Of a stretch of DNA of 64,000 bases, positions 20,750 through 56,541 are shown in pieces; position 1 is the first letter of the stretch, and every line of letters starts with the position of its first letter. The stretch is from Onchidella celtica. Taxonomy: Eukaryota > Mollusca > Gastropoda > Systellommatophora > Onchidiidae. The stretch spans positions 37,176,620 through 37,240,619 of the forward strand of contig OZ007570.1 in NCBI GenBank assembly GCA_963931925.1, given 5' to 3'. The translations under genes were made by a program, and so were the position numbers. Below the pieces are notes generated by a model, which saw only the letters and a program-made list of their open reading frames with translations, was not told where the DNA came from and ran no database searches.

Positions 20750-20825
20750 ATGTGTCCCTTAGTGACACCCCGGACTTTTCTGACGGTTATCCTCGTCGTC
20801 ATGGCAACAGTGATGAGTTGTTTGG
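20750..20825 (+). CDS. Neurotrophin exon 1: signal peptide
   Basis: ATG at 20750 opens [20 protein letters not shown] then VMSCL. A short polar start is followed by a hydrophobic core at residues 10-22 and small residues, a typical signal peptide. The first in-frame stop upstream is TAG at 20690, with no ATG in between, so this start is the only choice in frame. The exon ends in phase 1 before a GTAGGT donor (20826). The split codon G|CC gives Ala26 with exon 2, a plausible cleavage position. Kozak context is weak. The 24.5-kb distance to exon 2 makes this the exon most in need of transcript evidence. Confidence 0.7.

Positions 20826-56541: not shown

Follow-up and report, generated by a model that had tools for sequence, protein, structure and literature searches.

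A 64,000-nucleotide stretch of Onchidella celtica DNA (the window) carries what is, with high confidence on the basis of its sequence, a single-copy molluscan neurotrophin gene; the five-exon precursor has a hydrophobic N-terminus, a prodomain of just under 120 residues bearing N-glycosylation sequons, and an NGF-type cystine knot. The product is most likely a secreted Trk ligand. The gene belongs to a known family and is a further molluscan example of a kind already reported in molluscs, since neurotrophins of protostomes have been published for Lottia, Capitella, Daphnia, Platynereis and Aplysia (excerpts of PMC2772990 and PMC4812194). The statement in the first-pass annotation that neurotrophins have been reported in molluscs such as Aplysia agrees with what is cited in excerpts of PMC4812194, PMC6758832, PMC3790821 and PMC7535936. 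With a complete, single-copy precursor model and its likely receptor both at hand from one large-contig genome, comparisons between molluscs can take in the ligand, the receptor and the intron structure.

The raw sequence was used to reconstruct the five exons. As first proposed, they join to 774 nt, giving 257 residues and a single stop at the very end, in phases 1, 1, 0 and 2; all four introns are GT-AG, and the motifs GID, SQCR, WRW and C-x-C are all present in the rebuilt protein. The positions of the exons and of the knot cysteines are given in Table 1. Ahead of the start codon the frame is interrupted by a stop at 20690. The coordinates of exon 2, which the first-pass annotation did not give, are those of the candidate that ranked first under a simple score among 1,198 that fit the frame between exon 1 and exon 3; against other 63-nt candidates it scored 13.0, with the runner-up at 9.3. 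Splice sites were scored with a rough weight matrix built from general knowledge and ranked against all AGs and GTs of the window. The acceptors of the gene fall between the 97.8 and 99.8 percentiles among 3,419 AGs, and the donors at the 93.0, 97.9, 98.8 and 99.9 percentiles among 3,694 GTs (exon 1 donor, 97.9; exon 2 acceptor and donor, 99.8 and 99.9; exon 3, 99.3 and 93.0). Codon usage of exons 1 to 5 gave a weak signal, at the 67.6, 92.3, 77.5, 94.4 and 55.3 percentiles of stop-free segments, with a training set of 3,554 codons drawn mostly from cysteine-rich proteins. It had also been claimed that only small pieces of the gene lie in ATG-initiated frames. This is true of exons 2 and 4, which lie outside such frames, but exon 1 starts at its own ATG, and for exons 3 and 5 an in-frame ATG occurs further upstream. 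The gene can be called hidden only with respect to naive ORF calling. Rfam models (at the gathering threshold) and ARAGORN gave no matches within the window.

Table 1. Exons, first intron and cysteine codons of the neurotrophin gene (positions within the window)
Feature	Position	Strand	Description
Exon 1	20750-20825	+	76 nt, phase out 1; residues 1-25, with the ATG and a hydrophobic stretch resembling a signal peptide
Intron 1	20826-45327	+	24.5 kb; microsatellites and dispersed repeats
Exon 2	45328-45390	+	63 nt, phase out 1; residues 26-46, where the prodomain begins; N-glycosylation sequon N30
Exon 3	45890-46143	+	254 nt, phase out 0; residues 47-131 (prodomain), with N-glycosylation sequons N47, N70 and N103
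Exon 4	48926-49161	+	236 nt, phase out 2; first half of cystine-knot domain, with GID
Exon 5	56397-56541	+	145 nt including stop at 56539-56541; remainder of knot, W241 and V244
Cys I (residue 145)	48965-48967	+	exon 4
Cys II (residue 186)	49088-49090	+	exon 4
Extra cysteines (residues 199 and 202)			exon 4
Cys III (residue 203)	49139-49141	+	exon 4
Cys IV (residue 215)	56410-56412	+	exon 5
Cys V (residue 250)	56515-56517	+	exon 5
Cys VI (residue 252)	56521-56523	+	exon 5

The least certain link of the predicted gene is exon 1, which lies 24.5 kb away from the others across intron 1. Among 147 upstream first-exon candidates running from an ATG to a phase-1 GT (donor score of at least 4) it has the top hydrophobic core, and the six others above the hydrophobicity threshold are translations of a single microsatellite. 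A further, unusual feature of the model is the lack of any RxxR or [RK]x[RK]R motif well before the knot. The sole basic match ahead of Cys I is KSIR, one residue short of that cysteine, and the canonical RQRR (216-219) falls within the knot. The end of the prodomain carries no evident convertase cleavage site, a feature that bears on processing but is not counted as defining family membership by sequence. Because of this, it may be the uncleaved proneurotrophin that is secreted; alternatively, a weaker site may be used for cleavage, or an unseen exon may supply one. The absence leads to a clear prediction, of either a secreted proneurotrophin or alternative exons.

It is possible, if somewhat unlikely, that exons 4 and 5 are right while the N-terminal part is misassembled, there being another first exon or a missed exon with the processing site; this would be compatible with a neurotrophin. 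The length of intron 1 and the missing processing site are both consistent with such an error, as is the lack of homology support for exons 1 to 3 (exon 1 alone and exon 3 alone each match no Pfam family). Moreover, read-through past 46143 gives VLKTMKGKR, which resembles a convertase site. The Aplysia neurotrophin gene reportedly consists of several coding exons and yields splice isoforms that undergo distinct processing (Kassabov 2013); the title of that paper, as cited in PMC4812194 and PMC6758832, contains the words 'differentially processed isoforms'. Against misassembly, no other upstream exon of the window resembles one for a signal peptide as closely as exon 1 does. Convertase motifs are absent from all 10 phase-0 cassette exons scored in intron 3, and past 46143 the donors of phase 0, five in number, score from -4.8 to 0.1 as against 4.7 for the donor in use.

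The family to which the joined protein belongs was assessed with profile and structure-database searches. The first-pass annotation had called the gene a neurotrophin ligand, a reading that would fail if profiles preferred Spaetzle or no cystine-knot family. In the event, the Pfam NGF model (PF00243) matched residues 144-257 at 8.8e-12 and 45.6 bits, passing its cut-off of 27, while Spaetzle (PF16077) fell below its own cut-off of 27 with 22.3 bits (0.0002); the third match, MurJ, was weak and also below cut-off (0.012). With the 126-aa knot domain the scores were 48.4 bits for NGF and 24.2 bits for Spaetzle. Single exons score below the cut-off: exon 5 alone matched NGF at 6.2e-5 and 23.5 bits, which over the 482 frames of at least 40 aa listed for the region corresponds to about 0.03 matches expected by chance, and exon 4 alone matched only Spaetzle, at 0.015 and 16.4 bits. 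NCBIfam, made for prokaryotes, gave no family for the protein, and no homologue was found in a set of 5.8 billion proteins.

A sequence search of the PDB at E<=10 returned 18 distinct matches, of which 17 are named as neurotrophins or NGF (best, NT-4 at 1.9e-8) and none as Spaetzle; exon 4 alone had no PDB matches. The remaining entry is named ovulation-inducing factor, which we take to be an NGF. The six knot cysteines (C145, 186, 203, 215, 250 and 252) align in order and spacing with those of BDNF and NT-4, as does Trp 241; their order is that noted in the first-pass annotation. Over the aligned residues 34 of 100 are identical in BDNF, 30 of 107 in NT-4 and 23 of 68 in NT-3, and in the last alignment Cys186 is paired with no cysteine.

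According to excerpts of Wilson 2009 (PMC2772990), three sites distinguish Spaetzles from neurotrophins. By our reading of the alignment, W241 and V244 occupy two of these, Trp 130 and 133 (Ile/Val), and both are in the neurotrophin state. Pro154, at Cys I + 9, is in the Spaetzle state if, as appears from its position, it is equivalent to the Pro13 of the same excerpts; a proline here is also present in an Aedes Spaetzle and in a Spaetzle-like domain of the same genome, and is absent from BDNF and NT-4. Membership of the neurotrophins stands against Pro154, one adverse site of three, because the profile score and the two other sites outweigh it. The vertebrate neurotrophin motif quoted in the excerpted text of Wilson 2009 is matched at 7 of 9 specified positions, with the C and the V differing; the motif does not appear to be strict outside vertebrates, since most of its residues, rather than all, are described there as kept in the Daphnia NT (PMC2772990).

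It is very improbable, given these data, that the protein is instead a Spaetzle-family ligand of Toll-type receptors. The proline at Cys I + 9, the sub-threshold match of exon 4 to Spaetzle only, and the existence of a Spaetzle-like domain in this genome would fit such a ligand, but NGF leads by 23 to 24 bits and is the sole profile over cut-off, no Spaetzle is named among the PDB matches, and the Trp and Val states point to a neurotrophin. The Spaetzle-like domain (L061; G000:C1:116515497-116515781, minus strand) lies in a single 134-residue frame and is the sole match over cut-off among 17 candidates scored. It scores 41.9 bits with Spaetzle and 31.8 bits with NGF, both above the cut-off of 27. 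This order is the reverse of that seen for the neurotrophin, which makes the domain a control: the two families come out in different order under the two Pfam models. Its best PDB match is the Aedes protein AAEL013433 (E 0.002), presumably Spaetzle 1C. The excerpts of Wilson 2009 (PMC2772990) record that no Spaetzle was recovered from lophotrochozoans, and no title on a molluscan Spaetzle was among those listed in a thin search of the literature (15 of 1,273 and 10 of 1,961), nor do the Spaetzle passages of some of the listed papers name one; no claim of novelty rests on this.

The genome searched comprises 1.14 Gb in 43 contigs, with the window on a contig of 75.7 Mb. When the 126-aa domain was searched against it, four matches were obtained from four candidates: exon 4 at 1e-50, exon 5 at 8e-26, and two others at E 0.25 and 3.3, the former of which, on inspection, resembles chance. 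The Pfam NGF model gave no matches in the whole genome, nor in any of the 14 control genomes, which makes that search uninformative. That the gene is a decayed or silent copy, as its weak codon signal, repeat-filled introns and absent furin site might suggest, is highly improbable given an intact frame of 257 codons with strong splice sites, the retention of all six knot cysteines and the core motifs, and the finding of no other copy in the genome.

A bolder version of the neurotrophin reading can be put forward, which we regard as unlikely: that this mollusc's sole neurotrophin lacks a convertase site, carries an additional CxxC pair within the knot and acts on Trk as an uncleaved and possibly extra-bridged proneurotrophin, that it has a Spaetzle-like N-terminal residue, and that the genome keeps both a neurotrophin and a Spaetzle. 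If this were true, the split between neurotrophins and Spaetzles would predate that between Ecdysozoa and Lophotrochozoa.

The genome was also searched for a Trk receptor with sequence patterns. A first pattern used the motif as printed in excerpts of Wilson 2009 (PMC2772990), without a Tyr after D(V/I); its three matches were judged by eye not to be kinases (a repeat protein and two short frames) and were rejected. With the Tyr added, the pattern had two matches in the genome and none in a backwards control. One is a Trk, at C1:2405623; the other was judged by eye to be a ROR-like kinase. The Trk kinase locus covers about 2.402-2.409 Mb of contig C1. In a PDB comparison (the best 60 of 1,224 matches) the top 27 are Trk receptors, from 5.3e-26, and the next is DDR1 at 1.5e-19; 24 of the 27 are named as NGF, BDNF/NT-3 or NT-3 receptors and 3 just as 'tyrosine-protein kinase receptor'. 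The frames contain the activation loop DVYSTDYYR, with the ATP loop GEGAFGRVFLG and WMPPESILY in neighbouring frames, and the C-terminus reads PVYLDVIA followed by a stop. The PVYLDV segment resembles the PLC-gamma docking site of vertebrate Trks. A docking Tyr for PLC-gamma is described as conserved in the Trks of Daphnia and Aplysia (excerpts of PMC4812194) and of Lottia and Capitella (excerpts of PMC2772990). The ectodomain was not found; one candidate for its first exon has no Pfam match.

The neurotrophin would be secreted, would dimerise via its cystine knot, and may bind the Trk encoded in the same genome. Since this Trk keeps both DVYSTDYYR and PVYLDV, binding would be expected to drive kinase and PLC-gamma signalling in neurons, by analogy with what is reported for the Aplysia neurotrophin. 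There, the single neurotrophin signals via the single Trk as part of a positive presynaptic loop that involves PLC and calcium (excerpts of PMC6758832).

A p75NTR was not identified among the TNFR_c6 and death-domain matches inspected in the genome, and is neither shown nor excluded by this result. At least 150 TNFR_c6 matches (150 scored of 472 candidates) were obtained, at least 41 of them over cut-off; 1 of 14 control genomes was matched, with none over cut-off. These cysteine-rich domains are on contigs C12, C13, C18 and others (L005-L024), with C12 holding over half of the 150, often in tandem, and by eye several of the frames look like short secreted or single-pass receptors. Death domains gave 25 matches from 27 candidates, and 2 of the 14 control genomes were matched, none over cut-off; 15 of the 25 were inspected and 4 compared with the PDB. 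For L045 (G000:C1:89388932) the best PDB match is p75NTR (E 0.003), which fills the top 4 of 9 rows. L042 (G000:C1:58760425) is very similar and is followed within 1 kb downstream by a TIR domain. Both were dropped as p75NTR candidates because of this TIR domain, checked at L042 only, and look like death-domain/TIR adaptors. A further death domain, L032, was rejected as FADD-like.

Several other features of the window and genome were observed. A young-looking LTR retrotransposon spans 4335-13347 of the window, its repeat pair at about 4335-5571 and 12111-13347 having one mismatch found; an open frame at 7069-11505 encodes gag, a weak zinc knuckle and integrase, then reverse transcriptase and RNase H. 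By this order the element is a candidate gypsy-type element of the Gmr1 clade, in which integrase lies upstream of RT (PMC6238403). On the minus strand, a frame at 18843-19442 resembles the C-terminus of a non-LTR reverse transcriptase; its Pfam label, ALKBH8_N (39.1 bits), is probably the result of the model catching a retroelement segment. Large tandem arrays, tetranucleotide and 20/40-nt, occur at 34379-35111, 35578-36114 and 62456-63043, with units TCTA, ATCC and TCTGTTCTGTTTTACTCTCC; the first two sit within intron 1 of the neurotrophin gene. Elsewhere in the genome, the hemocyanin beta-sandwich gave 33 matches from 45 candidates, all in three places on contig C7, and none in the 14 control genomes. 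For a frame beside one such match the first 14 of 49 PDB rows are hemocyanins, KLH1 included, consistent with multi-unit genes. Hemocyanins of the KLH1 type are molluscan, which supports a mollusc as the host of the gene.

A close parallel to the present gene is in Aplysia, where excerpts of PMC6758832 likewise describe a single neurotrophin gene (ApNT) and a single Trk gene (ApTrk) in a mollusc; the likeness is to the published description of ApNT. The Aplysia NT is given as 28-32% identical to human BDNF, NT3 and NGF (excerpts of PMC4812194), and the Onchidella protein is 34% identical to BDNF over 100 aligned residues. Another gastropod gene, annotated as 'neurotrophin-3-like' in Lymnaea, has a CNS level that goes up with age (excerpts of PMC8414863) and is likened here by name only. 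The neurotrophin-like genes of Lottia and Capitella and the Daphnia NT are protostome neurotrophins with the six-cysteine knot seen here, that of Lottia being listed without an EST in the excerpts concerned (PMC2772990). The Daphnia precursor is also split into several exons, with the knot itself interrupted as it is here; it has 6 predicted exons and a ProP-predicted propeptide cleavage site, whereas the Onchidella model has five exons and no evident site (excerpts of PMC2772990). The Platynereis NT similarly shares a signal peptide, a prodomain with an N-glycosylation site and a knot of about 120 residues, but has a predicted RSKR cleavage site that the Onchidella model lacks (Lauri 2016; excerpts of PMC4812194).

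With the related cystine-knot family of Spaetzle the Onchidella protein has in common the Pro at Cys I + 9, but it is below the Spaetzle cut-off, and the remaining two discriminating positions are occupied by Trp and Val (excerpts of PMC2772990). With vertebrate BDNF, NT-4, NT-3 and NGF it shares the knot cysteines, the Trp, GID, WRW and C-x-C, and like NT-4 it has additional residues separating Cys II from Cys III; its two extra cysteines (199 and 202) have no counterpart cysteine in either BDNF or NT-4. Vertebrate neurotrophin precursors are encoded by one large exon (excerpts of PMC2772990), whereas that of Onchidella is encoded by five.
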